DNA from: Anaeropeptidivorans aminofermentans
GTDB lineage: Bacteria; Bacillota; Clostridia; Lachnospirales; UBA5962
Assembly (NCBI RefSeq): GCF_940670685.1
Contig: NZ_OW711693.1
Coordinates: forward strand, 2,914,001 to 2,978,000
Reading direction: 5' to 3'
Length of the DNA: 64,000 bases
Numbering within the stretch: position 1 is the first letter of the stretch; each line of letters opens with the position of its first letter. A program made the position numbers and the translations under genes. Of the stretch, positions 4,689-62,479 are shown in pieces. The notes beneath the pieces were generated by a model that made no database searches, was not told the DNA's origin, and saw only the letters and a list, made by a program, of their open reading frames with translations.

Positions 4689-6944
4689 ATGGATAATAAT
4701 ACTAGATTAGAAGGAGAAGTCGACAGCTTAATCTATCAAAATGAAGATAACGGCTACTGTGTTTTTTCCGTAATCAACCAAGAAGACGGTGACGAAATCG
4801 TATGCACCGCCAATATTTCCAGCATAAGCCCGGGAGAGACCGTGGTTCTTTTAGGCTCTTACGTAAACCACCCTTCCTACGGAAGGCAGTTTAACGTACA
4901 AAGCTTTGAAACCAGTGTTCCCGTGACCCTTCAAGGCATGCAGAAATATCTTGGAAGCGGTGCCATCAAAGGCATCGGTGAAAGAATGGCAGAAAGAATA
5001 ATATCAAAGTTCGGCGAAGAAAGCTTTGACATTATCGAAAGCCACCCTGAAAGACTTTCCGAAATAAAGGGAATTTCTTTAAAAAGGGCTCAGGAAATAA
5101 GCTCCTTATTCCATGAAAAGGCTAATGAACGTATGATTATGGCCTTTTTGCAGTCTTACGGTGTGTCCCCTTCTCTTTCAACAAAAATATATAAAAAATA
5201 CGGTCCTAAAACCGCTGAAATCGTAAAAAGAAACCCTTACCGCCTTTCTGAAGAAATCCCCGGAATAGGCTTTAAAACCGTGGACACCATTGCCGGCAAA
5301 TTAGGGGTGGATTTTGCAAGCGTCTACAGAATCAAATCCGGCATCAGCTACTGCCTCTCCTTAGGCGCATTAAACGGCCATACCTATTTACCGAAGGACG
5401 AGCTTCTTTCCCTTTCCTGTGAGCTTTTAGGGGTTCCAAGGGAATCAGCCGAAAATGCCCTGATTGAAATGCAGGTGGAAAAGTCCATCATTCAGGCTAA
5501 TCTTTCTGATGGCATCGGCGTATTTTTAAACAGCTTTTTCTATGCGGAAAATTATGTAGCCAAAAAGCTTTTGGAAATATCCTCCCATGGAATAGAAAAA
5601 CCTGAAAACGTCTTTGACGAAATAGAAGAATTGGAAGAAACCCTTGGGATAACGCTTGCAAGAAACCAAAAATACGCCGTATCCGAAGCCATGACGGGAG
5701 GCGTTCTTGTTATAACAGGAGGCCCCGGAACAGGTAAAACCACAACATTAAACGCCATTATCGCCCTTTTAAAAAAGCGGGGGCTTGAAATAGAGCTTTG
5801 CGCCCCTACGGGAAGAGCTGCCAAAAGAATGTCGGAGGCCACAGGGGAGCCTGCAAAAACTATACATAGGCTTTTAGAGGTGAAATTTCTTTCAGACGAC
5901 TCCAGAAGGCAGAACTTTGAAAGAAACGAAGATAATCCCATAGAAGCAGACGTCGTAATTATAGATGAAAGCTCTATGGTTGATATTATGCTGATGTTCA
6001 GCCTCCTTCGGGCATTAGACCCTGCGACAAGCCTGATTCTCGTAGGGGATGCCGACCAGCTTCCTTCCGTAGGGCCCGGCAATGTCTTAAAAGACATTAT
6101 TGCAAGCGGCTCCATAAAAACCATACGCCTTGACGAAATTTTCCGCCAGGCCCAGAAAAGCCATATTGTAATGAACGCCCACAGAATAAATAAAGGGGAA
6201 TACCCTGTTTTAAACGCCGATGACAGCGATTTCTTCCTTGTAAGAAGAAACACTATGCCTGAGGTGGAATTTACAATCATTGACCTGATTAAAAAAAGGC
6301 TTCCTAATTTTAAAGGCTATGACTCCATGACAGATATTCAAGTTCTAAGCCCCATGAAAAAGTCTTTAATCGGCGTCATAAGCCTGAATCAGGCATTGCA
6401 GAAGGCCCTGAATCCCCCTTCCCAATATAAAAATGAATATGAGTTTAGAAACGTAATATTTCGTGAAGGGGATAAGGTAATGCAGATAAAAAACAATTAC
6501 ACTACCCCTTGGAGTATTTTCGATTCTTCGGGAAGGCTTCTTGAAGAAGATTTAGGCATTTTTAACGGCGATGAGGGCATTATTAAAACTATTAATTTAA
6601 AAACCGAGTATATGACCGTGCTTTTTGATGACAGCAAAACCGTCAAATATCCTTTCAGCCAGCTTGATGAGCTTGATTTAGGCTATGCGGCAACCATTCA
6701 TAAATCCCAGGGAAGCGAATATAAAGCGGTAATCATTCCCGTTCACAGCGGCCCCGCTCTTTTGCTTAATAGGAATTTAATATACACGGGAGTTACACGG
6801 GCAAAAGAAATGGTCATTCTCGTAGGAACAGAAGAAGCAATTAAAAAAATGGTAGATAACAATAAAGAAATCAACAGATATTCTTCCCTTGATTTAAAAA
6901 TCAAGAAATTCAGCAATCTTCTGACTAAAGAGGTTAAAGAGTGA
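4689..6944 (+). CDS. recD2: RecD2-type ATP-dependent 5'-3' DNA helicase
   Basis: At 751 residues this is the normal size for RecD2, the RecBC-independent helicase of Firmicutes and Deinococcus involved in DNA repair and replication-fork stability. An OB-like N-terminal domain (1-85) is followed by helix-hairpin-helix repeats (about 90-200: GSGAIKGIGERMAERI, ISLKRAQEI, IPGIGFKTVD). Superfamily-1 helicase motifs are then seen: Walker A GGPGTGKTTT at about 343, VVIIDESSMVD, VGDADQLPSVGPG, DEIFRQ, AATIHKSQGSEY and YTGVTRAKE. It sits between rpe and comFC with 4-12 base gaps, so an operon is likely. Confidence 0.93.
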   Translation: MDNNTRLEGEVDSLIYQNEDNGYCVFSVINQEDGDEIVCTANISSISPGETVVLLGSYVNHPSYGRQFNVQSFETSVPVTLQGMQKYLGSGAIKGIGERMAERIISKFGEESFDIIESHPERLSEIKGISLKRAQEISSLFHEKANERMIMAFLQSYGVSPSLSTKIYKKYGPKTAEIVKRNPYRLSEEIPGIGFKTVDTIAGKLGVDFASVYRIKSGISYCLSLGALNGHTYLPKDELLSLSCELLGVPRESAENALIEMQVEKSIIQANLSDGIGVFLNSFFYAENYVAKKLLEISSHGIEKPENVFDEIEELEETLGITLARNQKYAVSEAMTGGVLVITGGPGTGKTTTLNAIIALLKKRGLEIELCAPTGRAAKRMSEATGEPAKTIHRLLEVKFLSDDSRRQNFERNEDNPIEADVVIIDESSMVDIMLMFSLLRALDPATSLILVGDADQLPSVGPGNVLKDIIASGSIKTIRLDEIFRQAQKSHIVMNAHRINKGEYPVLNADDSDFFLVRRNTMPEVEFTIIDLIKKRLPNFKGYDSMTDIQVLSPMKKSLIGVISLNQALQKALNPPSQYKNEYEFRNVIFREGDKVMQIKNNYTTPWSIFDSSGRLLEEDLGIFNGDEGIIKTINLKTEYMTVLFDDSKTVKYPFSQLDELDLGYAATIHKSQGSEYKAVIIPVHSGPALLLNRNLIYTGVTRAKEMVILVGTEEAIKKMVDNNKEINRYSSLDLKIKKFSNLLTKEVKE

Positions 6945-6948
6945 TCTT

Positions 6949-7647
6949 ATGGTGAAGGAATTTGTAAAATGGCTTTATCCCGATAAATGCGCTTCCTGCG
7001 GAAATCTTATGGATATTCATAAAAATGAATGGCTCTGCCGTAACTGCAAAGATGCCTTTACTGAAATTTCCGGCCCTGTATGTAAAAAATGCGGGGCCTT
7101 TTATTGCTGCTGCCCTAAAGGCAAAAGCTTTTATTTTAATAAAAATATATCCTTTTTTCTTTATGATGAAAACATGAGAAAAGCTATCCATAATTTTAAA
7201 TACGGTAAAAAACTCAGTCAAGGCAGGGCCTTAGGGAAGCTTATGGCAGATTCCTTAATAAAAGCAAATATTGATTTAAAGGATTATGATTATATCCTTC
7301 CTGTGCCTATCCATAAAGAAAGGCTTCGGGAAAGAGGCTTTAACCAGTCTGAAATACTGGCTATGGAAATTTCAGAAAAGACAAAAATACCCTTAAACAC
7401 TAAAATTGTAAAAAGAATAAAGGATACCATCCCTCAAAGCACCTTATCTTATGAGGGAAGGGTAAGAAATGTAAAAAACTCCTTTAAGATATCAAAAGCC
7501 AACTATGTCTGCAATAGGAATATCATCCTTATTGATGATATTTTTACAACTGGAAGCACTGTAGACGCCGTAAGCAAAGCCCTTAAAGAAGAGGGTGCCT
7601 CTAAAATCCTGTCTCTTACCCTTTCCATAGCAGAAAAGCATTCCTAA
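6949..7647 (+). CDS. comFC: ComFC-like phosphoribosyltransferase-family protein
   Basis: The 232-residue protein has an N-terminal zinc-binding segment with CxxC pairs (CASCG, CRNC, CKKCG) within the first 55 residues. A phosphoribosyltransferase fold follows, ending with the PRPP-binding motif IILIDDIFTTGSTV at about 183-196 and containing PVPIHKERLRERGFNQSE. ComF family proteins assist natural transformation in competent Firmicutes by handling incoming single-stranded DNA in the cytosol, but they are also widespread in species not known to be competent. It starts 4 bases after recD2. A short stem AGCGTGTTTGCAAACATGCT follows the stop. Confidence 0.88.
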   Translation: MVKEFVKWLYPDKCASCGNLMDIHKNEWLCRNCKDAFTEISGPVCKKCGAFYCCCPKGKSFYFNKNISFFLYDENMRKAIHNFKYGKKLSQGRALGKLMADSLIKANIDLKDYDYILPVPIHKERLRERGFNQSEILAMEISEKTKIPLNTKIVKRIKDTIPQSTLSYEGRVRNVKNSFKISKANYVCNRNIILIDDIFTTGSTVDAVSKALKEEGASKILSLTLSIAEKHS

Positions 7648-54965: not shown

Positions 54966-55196
54966 ATGATGGAGGATTCTATTAAAAACAAAACAGATCA
55001 GCTTATTGGCTCTATTAAAGAAAATGTAGGAAAAGCTTTGGGTTCAGAGCAAATAGAGCTGGAAGGAAAATTACAAAAGCTTACCGGCGACACTATGGAA
55101 AAAACTAAAAAGATTGGAAAAGATGTCAAGGAAGCCCTTGCCGAAAAAGCAAACGATTTCATTGATTCTATAAAGGACCCGCAGGAAGATAAATAA
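54966..55196 (+). CDS. CsbD-family stress protein
   Basis: The 76-residue charged helical protein has KNKTDQLIGSIKENVGKALG followed by SEQIELEGKLQKLTGDTMEK, the CsbD motif with GxxKExxGK and LEGKxQKxxG. The start is one of two adjacent ATG codons (54966, 54969) after AGGAGG. Function of the family is unknown; in Bacillus it is sigma-B controlled. Confidence 0.88.
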   Translation: MMEDSIKNKTDQLIGSIKENVGKALGSEQIELEGKLQKLTGDTMEKTKKIGKDVKEALAEKANDFIDSIKDPQEDK

Positions 55197-55206
55197 ACTT
55201 TACCTA

Positions 55207-55305
55207 TACGCGAATTAAAGTAAAATAGTTGCGTTGTAAGTTTGCTTTTCCTTGATTTTATGCCTGTTTAGCGTCTTCTACTTACTACGGAAGAAAAGCA
55301 AATTT
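55207..55305. repeat. Degenerate family-2 repeat
   Basis: GAATTAAAGTAAAATAGTTG and GTTTGCTTTTCCTTGATTTTA at the left face AGAAAAGCAAATTTACTAAATA at the right. Confidence 0.5.
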
Positions 55306-55312
55306 ACTAAAT

Positions 55313-55352
55313 AACTGAAAGGCCCCTTTCAAAAGAAAGGGGCCTTTCAGTT
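55313..55352. terminator. Bidirectional terminator between csbD-like and the next gene
   Basis: AACTGAAAGGCCCCTTTC / GAAAGGGGCCTTTCAGTT with an AAAA loop lies between the convergent genes. Confidence 0.8.
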
Positions 55353-55385
55353 ATATTGATTTTCTTGATTGCTTAAAAATATCGC

Positions 55386-55724
55386 CTAGACCGTAACATA
55401 AAGTATCGTGCAGGCAAGCATGATGCAGGCGCTTATTACAAACAAATTTATAAGGGTATCAAGGCTTGAACCGTTTTTTATGATAATCTGCTGTATGCCT
55501 TCATGCCTTTGCAATACCGCGTCTTTTTGGGCCTTCTGGATAGCCTTGTTTCCCTCTTTCAGCTTAGCGCTTATGATTTTTTCTGCTTCTTGCACAAAGT
55601 CTATACGGCCTTTACTTCTAATATTAAGCCCTGTATTTTTTTCCTTCATAACAAATATTACCTGCTCATAAGCCTGGAACTCGTCGCCGGGTATACATAT
55701 GACTTTTCTGCTTTTCTTTTCCAT
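55386..55724 (-). CDS. Hypothetical C-tail-anchored protein
   Basis: The 112-residue protein has a basic, helical, coiled-coil-like middle (FVQEAEKIISAKLKEGNKAI, QKAQKDAVLQRHEGIQQI) and one C-terminal membrane helix (LINLFVISACIMLACTILYV). GGAGGG precedes the ATG. No family recognised. Topology suggests a tail-anchored cytosolic protein. Confidence 0.65.
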   Translation of the reverse strand: MEKKSRKVICIPGDEFQAYEQVIFVMKEKNTGLNIRSKGRIDFVQEAEKIISAKLKEGNKAIQKAQKDAVLQRHEGIQQIIIKNGSSLDTLINLFVISACIMLACTILYVTV

Positions 55725-55846
55725 ATTCCCTCCATGACCTTGAAAGTATATTTATTTTTTAATTCAGCTGATTGTATTGAGGAATTACTTTTATAGTAAT
55801 TTTCCATATACAGTAATTTTCTCCTGCAAAACTAAAAATATACATA

Positions 55847-55984
55847 CATAGCAAATTTCTCATAAAGAAATAAGAAAAGCTATTTACTAAAGATTTAAAA
55901 GCATGAATTTCCCCGGAAACAGTAAATTTTGGAATCTATGCGGGTATATCCCCTTTATTATTGTTTTACTTTAAATTTACTATA
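55847..55984. repeat. Family-1 MITE-like element, diverged
   Basis: The left end CATAGCAAATTTCTCATAAA, core AAAAGCATGAATTTCCCCGGAAACAGTAAATTTT and right end AAATTTACTATA are less conserved than other copies. The remainder of 55725-56018 shows no gene. Confidence 0.65.
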
Positions 55985-56018
55985 GTAAATAAAGATAAGA
56001 TATTTTATTATAGGCATA

Positions 56019-56047
56019 AAAAAGCCCGGCTTTCGCCGGGCTTTAAA
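56019..56047 (-). terminator. Terminator of the 186-residue membrane protein gene
   Basis: On the minus strand AAAGCCCGGC-GAAA-GCCGGGCTTTTTT, 8 bases after the stop. Confidence 0.85.
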
Positions 56048-56054
56048 GCTTTCA

Positions 56055-56615
56055 TTATTCAGCTGCAAAAAGGAAACCGATTCTGGATAAGGTTAGCGCC
56101 ATAAAGATGAAAAAAGCATATAAGGGCCATCTGCCCAGAAAATATCTTCCTTCTTTATAAATGTATAAAAATCCAAGACCTATACATAAATAAAAGCTAA
56201 TGCTACTCATAAAGGGAATAAAAAGCTTTATAATGTTATTTATCCCGTAAGCTGTTATAAGCGTACCTGGAATAAGGAGCCCATTCTTATTTTTATTAAA
56301 ATAAAGAGCGATAAAAGAGAATCCCACAAATAAAAAGCTCATGGAAAAAATAATGCCGTCAAGGGTTGCCTTAAGAATATTAAAGTGCGAAAAATTATCC
56401 ACAAGGATTCCGCTTAGGCCTAAATACATAAGAAACGCACCTAAAATAAGCGACCAGCTTTTTCTTTTCGTCTTATATAAAAGAGAAAAGGCAAAGCCTA
56501 AAACCATAAGGGAAATGCTTCCGAAATTAATGACTACGTTTCCCTGCACAAAAAAGATTATGCCAATCAGAAGTACAATTATCCCTATAAATATTTGTTC
56601 ATATCTGGAATTCAT
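56055..56615 (-). CDS. Multi-pass membrane protein of unknown function
   Basis: The 186-residue protein has six to seven hydrophobic helices (IFIGIIVLLIGIIFFVQGNV, FGSISLMVLGFAFSLLY, and so on). No catalytic motif or family is recognised. ATG at 56615 has GGAGG 7 bases upstream. It lies 115 bases downstream of the DltA-like gene on the same strand and could be part of that transcript, but nothing else links them. Confidence 0.65.
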   Translation of the reverse strand: MNSRYEQIFIGIIVLLIGIIFFVQGNVVINFGSISLMVLGFAFSLLYKTKRKSWSLILGAFLMYLGLSGILVDNFSHFNILKATLDGIIFSMSFLFVGFSFIALYFNKNKNGLLIPGTLITAYGINNIIKLFIPFMSSISFYLCIGLGFLYIYKEGRYFLGRWPLYAFFIFMALTLSRIGFLFAAE

Positions 56616-56730
56616 ACGGCCTCCAAAACTACAGAAAAATTTAAAACATCGATTGTGTACCATATAGTAAAAGTAATATCCTTAATAATATATACTTTAA
56701 TTCATCTTATTTGTCTGAACCGGATTCATT

Positions 56731-58266
56731 TTAAATTTTGCCTTCTGTCATAAGGGATTTAAGCATAACCCTGTCTATTTTCGAATTCGCCGTATAGGGG
56801 AACTTTTCCATAATTTTTATTTTCTGAGGAAGCATATATTTAGGTATTAAAGATAAAAGTCTTTTCTTAATATCCTTAAGGTTTAAATCTTCTGCTGCTT
56901 CCAGGAGAAGAACGATTTGGGTATTTTCATAATCGTAAAGGACACAGGCATTATCCACCCCTTCAAGGCTCTTTGCCGCCGTCTCGATTTCACCAAGCTC
57001 TATTCTGTTGCCTCTGTGCTTTATTTGGCTGTCCTTTCTTCCGGCGAACATAATAAGGCCGTCGGGAGCTTCATATACAAGATCTCCCGTGCAATACATT
57101 TTTTCCTCATATTTATCGTTTAAAGGATTTTGTTTAAAGGCATTTTCCGTAAGCTCTTTTTCTCCGTAATAGCCAAGAGAAATCCCGGAGCCTAATACGC
57201 AAAGCTCTCCTGTTTCGCCTTTTCGAACTTCTTTTCCTTCCTCATCAAGGATAAGAACGCTCATATTCCTGCAGGCTCTGCCGATAGGCAAAGGCTCATG
57301 GTCCTCAAACTCTTTGTCTATGATATAGTAAGTGCATACGTCGGTTATTTCCGTAGGCCCGTATAAATTGGCATAAAGCACATGGGGCTGAGTCTTTCTC
57401 CACACATTGAGCTGCTTATTGGGCATAACCTCTCCGCAGAAAAGAGCCTGCTTCAAATAAGGAAGCTTTGTTTCTTCAAGAAGCCCCGTATTGGCAAGGT
57501 TAATATAAATCGTTGGAACCCAGAAGATGAAATTTATTTTCATTTCATTAAGATATTCCAAAACCTTGGCCTGAAACTGAAAAAATACATCGGGGATAAT
57601 AATAAGCTCTGCCCCTGTTTTAAGGCAGGCATAAATATCAAGAACCGTATTATCAAAATAAAAAGGCGATTGGTTTCCTAAAATTACGTTTTCATCGATT
57701 GCAAAGGTATCCATAAGCCAGTTTACATAATCTATAACGCCTCTGTGGGGAATTACAACCCCTTTTGGGTTTCCCGTAGAGCCGGAGGTATACATAATAT
57801 AAACAGGGTCTGAATCCCTGACAAGCCTTAAAGCATTATCAATAAGCCCTCTGTCATGAAGCTCTTTTATAATTTCATCGTAGACAGCGATTCTTTCTTC
57901 TTCTATGCCCAATGCCTTTAATTCTTCTGCGTGGTCTGAATCCGTAATAATAAGCTCGGGAGAAAGATTCTTAAATATTCTTCCAAGCCTTTTTTCAGGC
58001 ATAGATGTATCAAGAGGGATATAGGTATTTCCGCTGTACAGAATTCCCATAAAGGAAATAAGCACCTTTACGCTTTTAGGAAGAAATACGGCAATCATTC
58101 TGTTCTTCTTAAGCGCTCCAAAATGCTTTAAAATAGAAGTGCCCATGTTCATGGCAAGGTTTCTGTATTCAGTATAGCTTATTTTGATATCTCCATCCGT
58201 TACCGCCGTTTTAGAGCCGAATTTTTCTGCTGTTTCGTCTAATAAAATTACTGTAGAATTATACAT
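56731..58266 (-). CDS. dltA: DltA-like amino-acid adenylation enzyme
   Basis: The 511-residue enzyme of the ANL superfamily activates an amino acid as AMP-ester and loads it on a carrier protein. Motifs are YIMYTSGSTGNPKGV (A3), QSPFYFDNTVLDIYACL (A4), LFCGEVMP (in DltA proteins the Cys of this FCGE motif favours D-alanine), NLYGPTEITDVCTYY (A5), YCTGDLV (A7), GRKDSQIKHRGNRIELGEIE (A8) and the catalytic lysine in ANSKIDR (A10). No condensation or carrier domain is fused. D-Ala is the likely but unproven substrate. The ATG at 58266 fits the ribosome site AAAGGA better than 58275. It is divergent from the carrier gene. Confidence 0.85.
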   Translation of the reverse strand: MYNSTVILLDETAEKFGSKTAVTDGDIKISYTEYRNLAMNMGTSILKHFGALKKNRMIAVFLPKSVKVLISFMGILYSGNTYIPLDTSMPEKRLGRIFKNLSPELIITDSDHAEELKALGIEEERIAVYDEIIKELHDRGLIDNALRLVRDSDPVYIMYTSGSTGNPKGVVIPHRGVIDYVNWLMDTFAIDENVILGNQSPFYFDNTVLDIYACLKTGAELIIIPDVFFQFQAKVLEYLNEMKINFIFWVPTIYINLANTGLLEETKLPYLKQALFCGEVMPNKQLNVWRKTQPHVLYANLYGPTEITDVCTYYIIDKEFEDHEPLPIGRACRNMSVLILDEEGKEVRKGETGELCVLGSGISLGYYGEKELTENAFKQNPLNDKYEEKMYCTGDLVYEAPDGLIMFAGRKDSQIKHRGNRIELGEIETAAKSLEGVDNACVLYDYENTQIVLLLEAAEDLNLKDIKKRLLSLIPKYMLPQKIKIMEKFPYTANSKIDRVMLKSLMTEGKI

Positions 58267-58345
58267 ATGCATCATTCCTTTGTAAAAGGCAATCGCCTAT
58301 ATTGACTTTAAAATACGTAATAAATTTAAGTTCATCTACTTAAAA

Positions 58346-58374
58346 AGTATAACCTATATACTATGGTTATTCAA
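58346..58374 (-). promoter_or_regulatory. Sigma-A promoter of the dltA-like gene
   Basis: On the minus strand TTGAAT (58374-58369), 17 bases, TATACT (58351-58346). A weaker plus-strand TTCACG-18-TATACT (58542-58571) could serve the divergent operon. Confidence 0.65.
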
Positions 58375-58449
58375 GTTTCTTATTGTATAAAGGGCCTAAA
58401 TAGGGTAAAATATGAATGAAATTAAGCTTACTTGCTATTATGCTAAAGG

Positions 58450-58496
58450 AACTTAAAAATGATACAAGCATAAGTTTGCAAATCTTTTTAAAAGAG
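58450..58496. repeat. Family-3 short palindromic repeat
   Basis: GAACTTAAAAATGATACAAG followed by CATAAGTTTGCAAATCTTTT is close to the copy at 37502. It lies between the divergent dlt-like transcripts; nothing else is seen in 58276-58611. Confidence 0.6.
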
Positions 58497-58611
58497 CATT
58501 CTTTATAGTTAATAAAGAGGATTTCAGCTTTATTTGCTATATTCACGAATACAGTAAACTTATGGTATACTTATGGAATAATTTATTAAACTAACTTTAG
58601 AGGTGATTGCA

Positions 58612-58869
58612 ATGGATATAAATAAAATCAAAGAGGAAATACGCTCATTTTTAATAGAAAATTTTGATATTGATAAAGACGACAATGAATTTACAGACGA
58701 TGTGGACTTTTTCACTTACGGCTATGTGGATTCTTTCGGTGCCGCGGAAATCATAAGCTTTATAGAGGAGAATTTTAATATTGAAGTCTCAAATAAGGAC
58801 CTTGTGAAATACCCCATGACCTCCATAGATGAAATAGCCCACTATATAAATGTAAAAAAGGGTGCGTAA
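58612..58869 (+). CDS. dltC: DltC-like acyl/aminoacyl carrier protein
   Basis: The 85-residue acidic helical protein has the phosphopantetheine attachment serine in YGYVDSFGAAEIISFIEENF (DSF, about residue 40). It resembles DltC (VDSFG) more than fatty-acid ACP (DSLD). It would accept the amino acid activated by the divergent DltA-like enzyme. The ATG at 58612 follows AGAGGTG. The GNAT gene begins one base after its stop. Confidence 0.88.
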   Translation: MDINKIKEEIRSFLIENFDIDKDDNEFTDDVDFFTYGYVDSFGAAEIISFIEENFNIEVSNKDLVKYPMTSIDEIAHYINVKKGA

Positions 58870-58870
58870 T

Positions 58871-59308
58871 ATGGTTATAAGAGACGCCGGAGCAGGCGAC
58901 GTAACCGTTCTTACTGCCATGCTTAACGACATGTATTCGGAGATAAAATACGGTATTTCCTTTAACGAGGATTTTTTTAAAAGCCGCATTAAATCAAGGT
59001 TTTTTATAATAAAAATATTGGAAGAAGATGGACAGGCCTTAGGCTTTTCCACCGTTAAAATTACGAAAAGCGACTATACCCCAGAGGTTTCCTCCATGGG
59101 CTTTTTATATGAACTTTATATTAAACCTGAAATCAGAAAAAAAGGCTATGCCCGCCTTCTCCTTTCGGAAATGGAAAAGGAGCTTAAAGAATCAGGTATA
59201 GACTATATGGAGCTTTATGTAAGGCTCGATAATGAAAACGGCATGGACTTCTGGCTTAGAAACGGCTGCAAGCCTATATATCATGTGCTTTCAAAGAAGC
59301 TAATTTAA
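58871..59308 (+). CDS. GNAT-family N-acetyltransferase inside the dlt-like operon
   Basis: The 145-residue single-domain GNAT has the acetyl-CoA loop ELYIKPEIRKKGYARLLLSE (R-x-x-G-x-A) at about 80-99 and ENGMDFWLRNGCKPIYHV at the C-terminus. It lies one base after the carrier gene, with AAGGGTG 6 bases before the ATG, and 16 bases before the DltD-like gene. Classical dlt operons lack such a gene. It may acetylate the amino acid, the carrier-bound intermediate or an unrelated substrate. This is inference from position. Confidence 0.8.
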   Translation: MVIRDAGAGDVTVLTAMLNDMYSEIKYGISFNEDFFKSRIKSRFFIIKILEEDGQALGFSTVKITKSDYTPEVSSMGFLYELYIKPEIRKKGYARLLLSEMEKELKESGIDYMELYVRLDNENGMDFWLRNGCKPIYHVLSKKLI

Positions 59309-59324
59309 AGTAAGGAGCTTTATT

Positions 59325-60218
59325 TTGTTCTTTAAATTTATAAGAAAAAATCTTTTTTTCCTGTTTTTTATACTTTTTTTCATTATAAGCAATACTGTAT
59401 TTGCAAAAATGGATTATGTAAATAAAAGCCCTATGTTCGTTCCAAACGACTATGCAAAAACCCTTTACGAATACGGAACGAACCGCTTTTCCACGGCCAT
59501 TTTAGGAAACTCCACTGCAATCGCCGCCCTGAGAAATGATTTGCTTGGAAAAGACTGCGGCAATGCTTCCATCAGCTACGGAACTATAAAGGATTTTGAA
59601 GAAATTTTAAGAAGGGGCTTCATTGTTTCCGATAAAGAAGTTATTATCTGTGCCAATTATCTTGCCTTTCTGGACAATTGGGAAACAAACGAATCCTACC
59701 CTTGGCTCAGAGAGCCTTATGCCCCTTACGTATATTATTACCGTTCTGCAACGGCAGATTATCTTAAAGAAAACATCATCAATTACTTTAAAGGGGACAA
59801 TACCTTTTTTGAGCCTGTGGCAGATTATTATTTCGATAAAACCATTACCCCCGGCCATATGACCGATAGTGAGCTTGAAGAAAGAAAAATAAGCTTTGAA
59901 GAGCGGTTCGGGGATAAAACCATAGAGGATTTTAAAGGAAATATAAAAGCTCTTGAAAAAATCATAAGCTATTGTAATAAAAAAGACCTTACGCTTCGCT
60001 TCGTATGGATGCCTATCAATCCAAAATACGATAACAGGCCCGCTTATATCAAAGAACTTAGTGAAAAAGTAAATGGAATTCTCACAGAAAACAATATCGA
60101 TTATATAGACTGGACCGATGCCTTCGAGGCCAAATACTTTTATGATTTAGGTCATATCAGCTGGGAAGAAGGCTCTCTGGTATTTACTCAGGAGTTTATA
60201 AAATGGCTAAAGAAATAA
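59325..60218 (+). CDS. dltD: DltD-like secreted SGNH-type protein
   Basis: The 297-residue protein (TTG start, AAGGAG 8 bases upstream) has an N-terminal membrane anchor (LFFLFFILFFIISNTVFA) and an extracellular domain. That domain has an SGNH-like serine motif ILGNSTAIAAL at about 60-70 and DLGHISWEEG at about 275, carrying Asp and His as in the terminal DxxH block of DltD. It is shorter than typical DltD (about 400). In Dlt systems DltD acts outside the membrane in transferring D-alanine to teichoic acids. Overlap of its stop with the following microprotein gene shows coupling. Confidence 0.7.
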   Translation: MFFKFIRKNLFFLFFILFFIISNTVFAKMDYVNKSPMFVPNDYAKTLYEYGTNRFSTAILGNSTAIAALRNDLLGKDCGNASISYGTIKDFEEILRRGFIVSDKEVIICANYLAFLDNWETNESYPWLREPYAPYVYYYRSATADYLKENIINYFKGDNTFFEPVADYYFDKTITPGHMTDSELEERKISFEERFGDKTIEDFKGNIKALEKIISYCNKKDLTLRFVWMPINPKYDNRPAYIKELSEKVNGILTENNIDYIDWTDAFEAKYFYDLGHISWEEGSLVFTQEFIKWLKK

Positions 60219-60316
60219 TCTTTCAGGCTCTTAAGGCCTTACTGTTCGTCATCATCGTGTATTTAATATTTTTATTTATCGGGGGCCAGCAGGCCTTTGT
60301 TTACGAGGGCTTTTAG
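60203..60316 (+). CDS. dltX: DltX-like membrane microprotein with C-terminal FxYxxF motif
   Basis: The 37-residue peptide starts MAKEIIFQALKALLFVIIVY, has one membrane helix, and ends ...GGQQAFVYEGF. The extreme C-terminal FVYEGF fits FxYxxF, the motif of DltX in which the tyrosine has been shown to carry D-alanine across the membrane for DltB. It overlaps the end of the DltD-like gene by 16 bases, with AGGAG 8 bases before the ATG. It precedes the MBOAT gene by 48 bases. Such genes are usually missed because of their size. Confidence 0.82.
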   Translation: MAKEIIFQALKALLFVIIVYLIFLFIGGQQAFVYEGF

Positions 60317-60364
60317 GCTTTTACTAATTTTTCTATCTATAGCTTTTCATAAAGGCAGGTTATT

Positions 60365-61495
60365 ATGTGGTATCTGGATTCTCAGCTTAAATATATCATG
60401 CTCATGGCAGTTTTTTATATTGCCTTAAGCGCCCTTTATCCAAAAGGCGCTGCCTTTGCTAAAAGAAATTTATTTCCGGCGGCTTTTTTTGTGTTCCTTT
60501 TTAGCTATAATCCCTATACGGGATTTTTATATATCGTTGCTGCCTTCATTAATTTCTATATAGCAAAGCTTATATTGAAATCAAACCATAAAAAAACACT
60601 ATTTATATTTTCTATTATATTCAATAGTGTTGCTTTTTTAATTGTGAGCATTCTTCCTTATTTTAATACTGATATACTGAGTTTTATCTCCTTCATAGGC
60701 TACGCCTATGCTTATTTAAAGCTTATGGATTTATCTTATTATGCTTACTTTTACGAAGAGGAAATGAATATCAGAGATGTTCTTAGCTTTATTTTATTTG
60801 TCCCTGTATTTACATCAGGGCCTATTATCAGTTTTAACGACTATAAAAACCAAATTGATACGCCTCAGGAGATGCCGGAGCTTGAAGCGCCTGTAAAAAG
60901 AATCATAAAAGGCTTTTTTAAAAAAGTAGTTTTAATTAAACTGATTTACATATTCCACGACCGTCTTCTTGAAGGAGAGCTTAATATGCTTTTAAGCCTT
61001 CTTGTGCTTTTTTCATTTTATATTATAGGCTATCTTGATTTTTCGGGGTACTCCGATATTGCCATCGGCTTTTCAAAGCTTATGGGCTTTCATATCCCTG
61101 AAAACTTTAAATTCCCGTTTCTCTCTCCTTCCTTGACCATCTTCTGGAAGAACTGGCATATTACCTTAGGGGCATGGATTAAATCCCATATATCCATATT
61201 TCTTAAGCCTAAAACAAGGCTTCAGGCTGCCGTAAGCGCATTTATCATCATGCTTTTCATCGGGGTATGGCATAAGTTTTCACTGCTTTTCTTTTTATGG
61301 GGCGTATGGCACGGCATCTTCCTTTTTATTGAAGCCTATTTCAATATCGGAACCGTAAACAAAAAGAAAACAAAGCCCCTCATCTATTACGCAAGGTGCT
61401 TTGTCACTAATCTGATTGTTACGCTTGGCTGTATTTTCTTCTACAGCGATATGGATATTGTATTAAAAATATTCAAAGGTCTTTTCAGTTTATAG
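60365..61495 (+). CDS. dltB: DltB-like MBOAT-family acyltransferase
   Basis: The 376-residue protein has about ten hydrophobic segments and the MBOAT core: LDFSGYSDIAIGFSKLMGFH, FWKNWHITLGAWIKSHI and MLFIGVWHKFSLLFFLWGVW then HGIF, with the invariant catalytic histidine in VWHG at about 316. In Dlt systems DltB passes the aminoacyl group from the cytosolic carrier to the outside through DltX. AAGGCAGG precedes the ATG. It ends the operon; no terminator stem is obvious. Confidence 0.88.
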   Translation: MWYLDSQLKYIMLMAVFYIALSALYPKGAAFAKRNLFPAAFFVFLFSYNPYTGFLYIVAAFINFYIAKLILKSNHKKTLFIFSIIFNSVAFLIVSILPYFNTDILSFISFIGYAYAYLKLMDLSYYAYFYEEEMNIRDVLSFILFVPVFTSGPIISFNDYKNQIDTPQEMPELEAPVKRIIKGFFKKVVLIKLIYIFHDRLLEGELNMLLSLLVLFSFYIIGYLDFSGYSDIAIGFSKLMGFHIPENFKFPFLSPSLTIFWKNWHITLGAWIKSHISIFLKPKTRLQAAVSAFIIMLFIGVWHKFSLLFFLWGVWHGIFLFIEAYFNIGTVNKKKTKPLIYYARCFVTNLIVTLGCIFFYSDMDIVLKIFKGLFSL

Positions 61496-61645
61496 CCAAA
61501 CAAATAATCAGGGTAACAAAAGCCGTTATTTTATCCTCAGTGAGCCTGAAAACACTCCCGACAAAGCTGTTGTAAAAGCTTCAGGTGAACGTTCCCTTAT
61601 ATAGTAAATTTCACAGAAGGATGCTGTCTCAAGATTGTTTTGCTT
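61496..61645. repeat. Remnants of family-1 repeat
   Basis: GGTAACAAAAGCCGTTATTTTA (about 61512) and TATAGTAAATTTCACAGAAGG (61600-61620) match isolated parts of family 1 but do not form a complete element. No gene. Confidence 0.4.
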
Positions 61646-62479
61646 TTAATATTTTCTCATATAAGGCAGATGCTTTTCAACAATCCATTTGATGATATAA
61701 ATAAATATCAATGTGCCTGCCGTTTCAAGGGCAAAGCCCATGAAATTCGTTCCGAAAGCCGTCATTCTGATAAAGGAGTCGGCTATTTTTGTGCCTAAAA
61801 GAATATAATAGCCTATTTTCCTATAATTATATGTAAACACAAGCCCTGATAAATAGCCTGCAGCCCTTAAAAGGGAAATCCCTGTAAATATTATTTTATA
61901 GCTGTCCCAAGGCAGAGGCCATATATTTTTTAAGGAAATTACCGTTAAAATAACAAGATAGCCCGTCATTGCCCCAAGGATAAAAAAATCATTGAAGCTG
62001 ATGTGCTTTACCTGCTTTCCGCAGGAAGGGCAAAACCCAAAACCCTTTGTGTCCGAGCCGCAAAACTCACAAGGAATTTCTTTAAACGAAACGCTCGTTT
62101 CAAAAAGCCCTTTATTTTTTGCTTCCTCATAGCCTTTTACTGGGGCGTCGAGGCCTTTAGATTCCTGTTTAAGACAACTGTTTTCAATGGAAGCAAGAAG
62201 CATCTCGCCCTTCTCGCTTCTGTAAGGGCTTACTTCTATTTCTTTATAAAGAATATGCTCCATCATTTCATCTGTGGATTTAATTATTTCCGCGGCTTCG
62301 TTCAGAAGCTCAAAATCCTTGCTTTTTATTTTCACGTAATGCATTTTTTCATGAGTAACGCCCTTTCTTGTTACTCCCGTAATGCCTGCGCCGTTAAGCC
62401 TTTTCATATCCAAAGTTCTAAAAAGCTTTTCAAAACACTCCCAAGGCTCAAGCGCTCCGTTAAAAATAAGCTTAAGCAT
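61646..62479 (-). CDS. Zinc-ribbon membrane protein of unknown function
   Basis: The protein has about 277 residues: a cytosolic N-terminal half (MLKLIFNGALEPWECFEKLF...), a zinc ribbon CEFCGSDTKGFGFCPSCGKQ at about 140-160, then four to five hydrophobic helices to the C-terminus. The arrangement resembles many clostridial zinc-ribbon membrane proteins with no known role. The ATG at 62479 is favoured over 62530 since only it has an AAGGCAG-like site. Confidence 0.65.
   Translation of the reverse strand: MLKLIFNGALEPWECFEKLFRTLDMKRLNGAGITGVTRKGVTHEKMHYVKIKSKDFELLNEAAEIIKSTDEMMEHILYKEIEVSPYRSEKGEMLLASIENSCLKQESKGLDAPVKGYEEAKNKGLFETSVSFKEIPCEFCGSDTKGFGFCPSCGKQVKHISFNDFFILGAMTGYLVILTVISLKNIWPLPWDSYKIIFTGISLLRAAGYLSGLVFTYNYRKIGYYILLGTKIADSFIRMTAFGTNFMGFALETAGTLIFIYIIKWIVEKHLPYMRKY

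Follow-up and report, generated by a model that had tools for sequence, protein, structure and literature searches.

The window (the whole 64-kb stretch of DNA that was analyzed) contains a six-gene locus that is quite likely to encode a self-contained, carrier-dependent machine for acylation of an envelope polymer. It resembles Dlt in its working and is not a canonical dlt operon. The gene content, the folds, the catalytic residues, and the shuttle motif are in place, and family searches found no other adenylating enzyme or dedicated carrier in the genome.

The locus contains the core parts of a D-alanylation-type machine

ORF calls combined with Pfam and NCBIfam searches yielded six ORFs, each with the domain or motif given here.

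56731..58266, minus strand: amino-acid adenylation (A) enzyme, DltA-like, distinct from canonical DltA; AMP-binding; 511 aa from ATG 58266
58612..58869, plus strand: carrier protein, 85 aa; PP-binding; ...GYVDSFG... with the phosphopantetheine serine
58871..59308, plus strand: GNAT N-acetyltransferase, 145 aa; Pfam GNAT; acetyl-CoA-binding-type motif RKKGYA
59325..60218, plus strand: SGNH protein, DltD-like, 297 aa; TTG start; N-terminal membrane helix; GNS with S63; D274-x-x-H277
60203..60316, plus strand: DltX-like membrane microprotein, 37 aa; C-terminal FVYEGF (acyl-shuttle motif FxYxxF)
60365..61495, plus strand: short MBOAT with DltB fold, 376 aa; catalytic-type histidines H265 and H303; lacks a fused shuttle motif

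All core parts of a D-alanylation-type machine are thus present, as an earlier note on this DNA had claimed. Its description of an arrangement unlike the classical dltXABCD also holds: the A gene is on the minus strand, and the carrier, GNAT, SGNH, microprotein, and MBOAT genes run divergently from it on the plus strand in a single tightly packed series. The microprotein gene has the SGNH gene directly before it and the MBOAT gene directly after it. The locus has no glycosyltransferase or sugar gene next to it. The term "split" used in that note does not go far enough. The locus is not a canonical dlt operon whose genes were moved apart; the A enzyme and the carrier are members of a different clostridial family that spans the order.

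Judged by eye, each of the six genes is preceded by an AGGAG/AGGTG-type motif resembling a ribosome-binding site. For the A gene, the start codon was chosen from the AAAGGA that precedes it; a longer in-frame ATG at 58275 gives 514 aa. The A gene had also been credited with its own promoter. A promoter scan gave 22 matches in total versus 20.4 ± 4.4 by chance, i.e., not above chance, and the best promoter-like match (11/12, at 58286-58258 on the minus strand) overlaps the A start codon. The scan thus did not bear this claim out, and a separate promoter for the A gene follows from the divergent orientation alone. An Rfam scan of positions 55000-62000 found no RNA elements.

Genome-wide statements rest on family searches. 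In the 3.76-Mb genome, the A enzyme is the sole AMP-binding protein found, and the carrier is the only one outside the fatty-acid genes; the other two carriers are ACPs of fatty-acid synthesis. A second, canonical dlt operon had been named beforehand as evidence that would speak against a distinct machine. Searches with the AMP-binding, MBOAT, and PP-binding families detected none in the genome. As the sole adenylation-type enzyme and the sole non-fatty-acid carrier sit in the locus described here, these searches leave no room for a canonical dlt operon at another site. The genome has one AcpS-type phosphopantetheinyl transferase (PPTase) and one LtaS/GacH-like phosphoglycerol transferase, the latter making a glycerol-phosphate polymer a candidate substrate. 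One further MBOAT was found (L003 7500-8969); it has FLYFQF as its fused motif, its partner (6567-7487, minus strand) is SGNH-like, and there is no carrier or A enzyme near it. A long GPTGPQG collagen-like protein is encoded about 1.5 kb from this second MBOAT (L003 10480-12765).

The single LtaS/GacH-like enzyme and the lack of other dlt genes in the genome would also fit plain D-alanylation of (lipo)teichoic acid. The locus would then be a diverged and rearranged dlt operon using the same amino acid and polymer, with the GNAT as a passenger. All five Dlt working parts are indeed present. We nevertheless regard this explanation as rather unlikely, given the properties of the A enzyme and the GNAT described in the following two sections.

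The A enzyme lies outside the canonical DltA clade

The A enzyme matches Pfam AMP-binding (6e-68). It scores 339 bits against the amino-acid adenylation model TIGR01733 (over the cut-off of 317) and 308 bits against the DltA equivalog TIGR01734 (under the cut-off of 560). A tree built from 51 A enzymes, five of them canonical, gave 100/100 support to a canonical DltA clade that excludes the window enzyme. Its sister is the A enzyme of locus L091 (56% identity, 100/100).

Read by alignment, the pocket code of the window enzyme is DNLTLCLDVK, compared to DLMSLCTVAK in the canonical loci L144 and L145. Canonical L146 and L147 have close variants of the latter code, and L143 diverges more. Asp208 and Cys280 of the DltA-type pocket are retained, while the Leu, Thr, and Val of canonical DltA correspond to Asn209, Leu304, and Asp312. 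In DltA, a Leu, a Met, and a Cys border the D-Ala methyl group, and the cysteine (Cys269 of BcDltA, Cys268 of BsDltA) helps the enzyme to reject L-Ala (PMC8972799, PMC4176424). In the window enzyme, the methyl-pocket Leu and Met are replaced by Asn and Leu, and Val330 of DltA by Asp. Its C280 aligns with C269 of BcDltA, the D-Ala-selecting cysteine.

Based on these residues, the substrate is probably a small D-amino acid, and possibly one other than alanine. The use of a different amino acid, raised in the earlier note, is made more plausible by the A-domain phylogeny and the pocket code, although the enantioselectivity cysteine is retained. Reading the code as one definite amino acid was rejected as over-reading. 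For plain D-alanylation, the same residues cut both ways: the conserved cysteine speaks for it, while the replacement of the methyl-pocket Leu by Asn209 and of Val330 by Asp (pocket residues from PMC8972799) and the position outside the DltA clade speak against it.

Carrier and GNAT are shared with related clostridial loci

The carrier matches Pfam PP-binding (6e-8). It does not reach the cut-offs of the DltC equivalog TIGR01688 (19.8 bits, cut-off 52) or of PRK05087 (24.9 bits, cut-off 68); a canonical DltC scores 121 bits in the DltC-model comparison. Indeed, no window protein reaches the curated Dlt cut-offs (DltA, DltB, DltC, and DltD), which further argues against plain D-alanylation.

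The GNAT matches its Pfam family with 2e-12. For each of the window A enzyme, GNAT, and carrier, the nearest relative is a protein of L091, where the three genes are adjacent (layout A-GNAT-carrier-MBOAT); for the GNAT this link is weak (22% identity). A GNAT gene between the A and carrier genes was found in L091, in the whole family L095-L110 (except L103, L108, and L109, which belong to other families), and in the distant phylum family L170. This recurrence in related loci makes the GNAT unlikely to be a passenger, contrary to what plain D-alanylation implies. Going by gene neighborhood, the recurrent GNAT may N-acetylate the amino acid on the carrier ahead of export.

SGNH protein, microprotein, and MBOAT

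The SGNH protein gives a sub-threshold match to Pfam DltD (E 0.0026, 17.6 bits versus a cut-off of 22.7). With 297 aa versus 388-422 aa for the DltD proteins of the canonical loci inspected, it is about 90-125 residues shorter, in agreement with the roughly 100 residues estimated previously. Ser63 (GNS, nucleophile-type) and Asp274-x-x-His277 are invariant in 14 proteins, i.e., the SGNH protein and 13 related ones. The predicted structure has an SGNH fold with medium confidence (pLDDT 65.6). With DltD structures, this medium-confidence model aligns at Z 11.5-12.4 across 215-224 residues; PatB, OatA, and generic SGNH esterases tie with DltD in Z, over fewer residues.

The 37-aa microprotein, MAKEIIFQALKALLFVIIVYLIFLFIGGQQAFVYEGF, is a one-helix protein with FVYEGF, a form of FxYxxF, at its very C-terminus, and is DltX-like in this respect. 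The FxYxxF acyl-shuttle motif was described for DltX and PatA, and experiments have established that both work as acyl-Tyr shuttles (PMC12148441). Since the microprotein is short and has no family match in Pfam or NCBIfam, its ORF might be a chance frame, the MBOAT acting without it or with the motif of the other MBOAT. We consider this extremely improbable: among the 457 short ORFs (25-70 aa) of the window, it is the only one that ends in FxYxxF, and it combines this exact C-terminal motif with a membrane helix and a ribosome-binding-site-like motif. Moreover, the window MBOAT lacks the fused motif seen in its fused relatives, and separate microproteins recur beside short MBOATs in other loci.

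Short MBOATs of DltB length with a separate FIYxxF microprotein were observed in L150 (274-1768), L152 (7457-8980), L153, and L155-L161. Most have an SGNH-size neighbor, and no A enzyme or carrier was detected nearby. The DltX-like microprotein was stated to be absent from non-Dlt MBOAT-SGNH pathways (PMC12148441), to which these loci would be exceptions.

The MBOAT matches its Pfam family (9e-15) and scores 138 bits against the curated DltB model (cut-off 375), no higher than fused MBOATs do. The best match of its predicted structure (pLDDT 85.6) is DltB, which aligns to 361 of the 376 residues with Z 33.4 (next family, Z 30). The model stops at the end point of DltB, without the extra shuttle-motif helices of PatA-type MBOATs, and both family histidines (H265 and H303) are retained. 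In sequence, the protein is an orphan with a best identity of 28-34%: no close relative above approximately 34% was found in 146 genomes of relatives, 398 genomes of the phylum, and one genome-contig scan. In the tree, branches with 98/96 and 100/99 support separate it from the fused-motif clade, but its own branch is so long (3.77) that its placement is unsure. Such a branch would suit a fused MBOAT minus its tail as well as a diverged DltB.

Relatives across the order and phylum

In a sample of species, the neighborhoods of 40 related A enzymes of the order were inspected. A carrier was present in 35, an MBOAT in 31 (each within 5.5 kb of the A gene), and an SGNH protein of one cluster in 23. 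In 27 loci, the MBOAT carries the motif fused C-terminally. The common layout across the order is A, carrier, MBOAT with fused FxYxxF, and SGNH. Loci with A, (GNAT), carrier, fused MBOAT, and SGNH constitute a previously unremarked clostridial family. We know of no name for it, and no publications on clostridial A/GNAT/carrier/MBOAT loci were found in the open-access literature.

The complete six-gene arrangement was found in the window genome and in none of the other genomes sampled. For the family of genome G030, one genome was available as a relative, and the MBOAT gene there runs off the contig end. The lack of a relative with the full arrangement and the orphan MBOAT, which leave operon-wide conservation without support, count against the proposed machine. 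The window locus is unusual in joining the trio of A enzyme, GNAT, and carrier with a separate DltX-like microprotein and an orphan MBOAT.

Several related loci have additional genes. In L077, L080, and L081, an Asp/Glu racemase gene adjoins the A gene, and the code is DAKSAGLGMK or similar with Lys at position 239; the racemase and this Lys suggest an acidic D-amino acid, e.g., D-Glu or D-Asp, as substrate. In L084, L087, and L090 (code DVKSLSLCNK or similar), the A gene has a neighbor encoding a PLP-dependent Orn/DAP-decarboxylase-like protein. L071, L073, L075, L076, and L082 have A enzymes of the window enzyme's clade with a code without Asp235 (SM[LT][ST]LALD[IT]K), and thus their substrate might be something other than an alpha-amino acid. 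In L075, a PPTase gene is adjacent. The A gene of L172 (394-3669) seems to be split, about 1.6 kb with an opposite-strand ORF of 533 aa having been inserted.

A enzymes close to that of the window are also encoded in the surface-glycan clusters L092, L093, L168, and L169, which have no MBOAT. In most of them, a carrier gene is beside the A gene. Their neighbors include genes for glycosyltransferases, an AAC(3)-like acetyltransferase, and radical SAM proteins; the L092 cluster also seems to include flagellar genes.

Such clusters raise the alternative that the window A enzyme and carrier function in a cytoplasmic pathway for surface glycans, in which the GNAT N-acylates an amino sugar. SGNH protein, microprotein, and MBOAT would then be a neighboring but separate acyl-CoA-dependent O-acylation system. 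In L092, L093, and L168, an A enzyme sharing the pocket code of the window enzyme is accompanied by glycan genes and not by an MBOAT; A enzyme and carrier alone are thus no proof of polymer esterification. Conversely, trios of short MBOAT, microprotein, and SGNH protein exist without an A enzyme or carrier (L150, L155-L161). We judge this alternative improbable, however, since the genes from carrier to MBOAT form one tight run with no glycosyltransferase or sugar gene adjacent, an MBOAT is found within 5.5 kb in 31 of the 40 sampled A loci, and L091 likewise has A-GNAT-carrier-MBOAT.

Proposed function and significance

By analogy, the locus most likely works as Dlt does, passing the acyl group from thioester to acyl-Tyr to acyl-Ser and to a polymer ester. 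According to the Dlt/Pat mechanism, the A enzyme would adenylate the amino acid and load it on the phosphopantetheine arm of the neighboring carrier. The GNAT may then modify the carrier-bound group, most simply by N-acetylation. The MBOAT would carry the acyl group across the membrane to the tyrosine of FVYEGF, and Ser63 of the SGNH protein would accept it and esterify an extracytoplasmic polymer, e.g., a glycerol-phosphate polymer. The GNAT step, the amino acid, and the polymer are the least certain parts.

More tentatively, we propose that the Dlt-like machines of Clostridia might constitute a broad family exporting a variety of carrier-bound amino acids, with a dedicated GNAT N-acylating some of these, and that the window locus might attach an N-acetylated or non-alanine D-amino acid to an envelope polymer by an ester bond. 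The pocket codes and the linked racemase, decarboxylase-like, and GNAT genes suggest such variety across the family.

To our knowledge, D-alanylation of teichoic acids is essentially the only envelope aminoacylation described for this type of machine. The window locus may put something other than D-alanine on the cell surface, and if it adds an N-acetylated amino acid, no positive charge would be gained, unlike in D-alanylation. If the A enzymes of the family activate different amino acids, many Clostridia would bear undescribed surface amino-acid esters, with bearing on surface charge, resistance to antimicrobial peptides, and host recognition. The window locus also connects two known acyl-shuttle layouts, the separate microprotein and the fused motif.

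Comparison with known systems

With Dlt (dltXABCD), the window locus shares an adenylating enzyme, a carrier, an MBOAT of DltB length, a membrane-anchored SGNH protein, and a separate FxYxxF microprotein. It differs in that the A enzyme and carrier are outside the canonical families, the pocket code is another one, a GNAT is added, and the SGNH protein is about 100 aa shorter. Further, the A gene is divergent, and the microprotein gene is located between the SGNH and MBOAT genes instead of before the A gene. The locus thus does not show the X-A-B-C-D order on one strand. This mismatch weighs little, as the order varies among canonical loci too: L146 (5554-10031) is a canonical dlt operon with the order A-B-C-D-X, its microprotein (ending in FTYAEF) being encoded after dltD and not before dltA.

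PatA/PatB and AlgI-type O-acetylation systems also have an MBOAT-SGNH pair and an acyl-Tyr shuttle motif. Those systems use acyl-CoA as donor and carry the motif as a fused part of the MBOAT, whereas the window locus encodes the motif in a microprotein and has a carrier served by a dedicated adenylating enzyme. The two extra C-terminal MBOAT helices bearing FxYxxF, a trait of the PatA/AlgI type, are absent from the window MBOAT.

The clostridial loci L073, L077, L095-L107, and L170 share the A clade, the carrier, and an aligned SGNH catalytic motif with the window locus, which, like this family, has an A enzyme outside the canonical clade and an adjacent carrier. A GNAT is a feature of several clostridial fused-MBOAT loci as well. 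These loci differ from that of the window in their A-enzyme codes and in their MBOATs, which are approximately 530 aa long, bear FxYxxF as a fusion, and group in a clade to which the window MBOAT does not belong.
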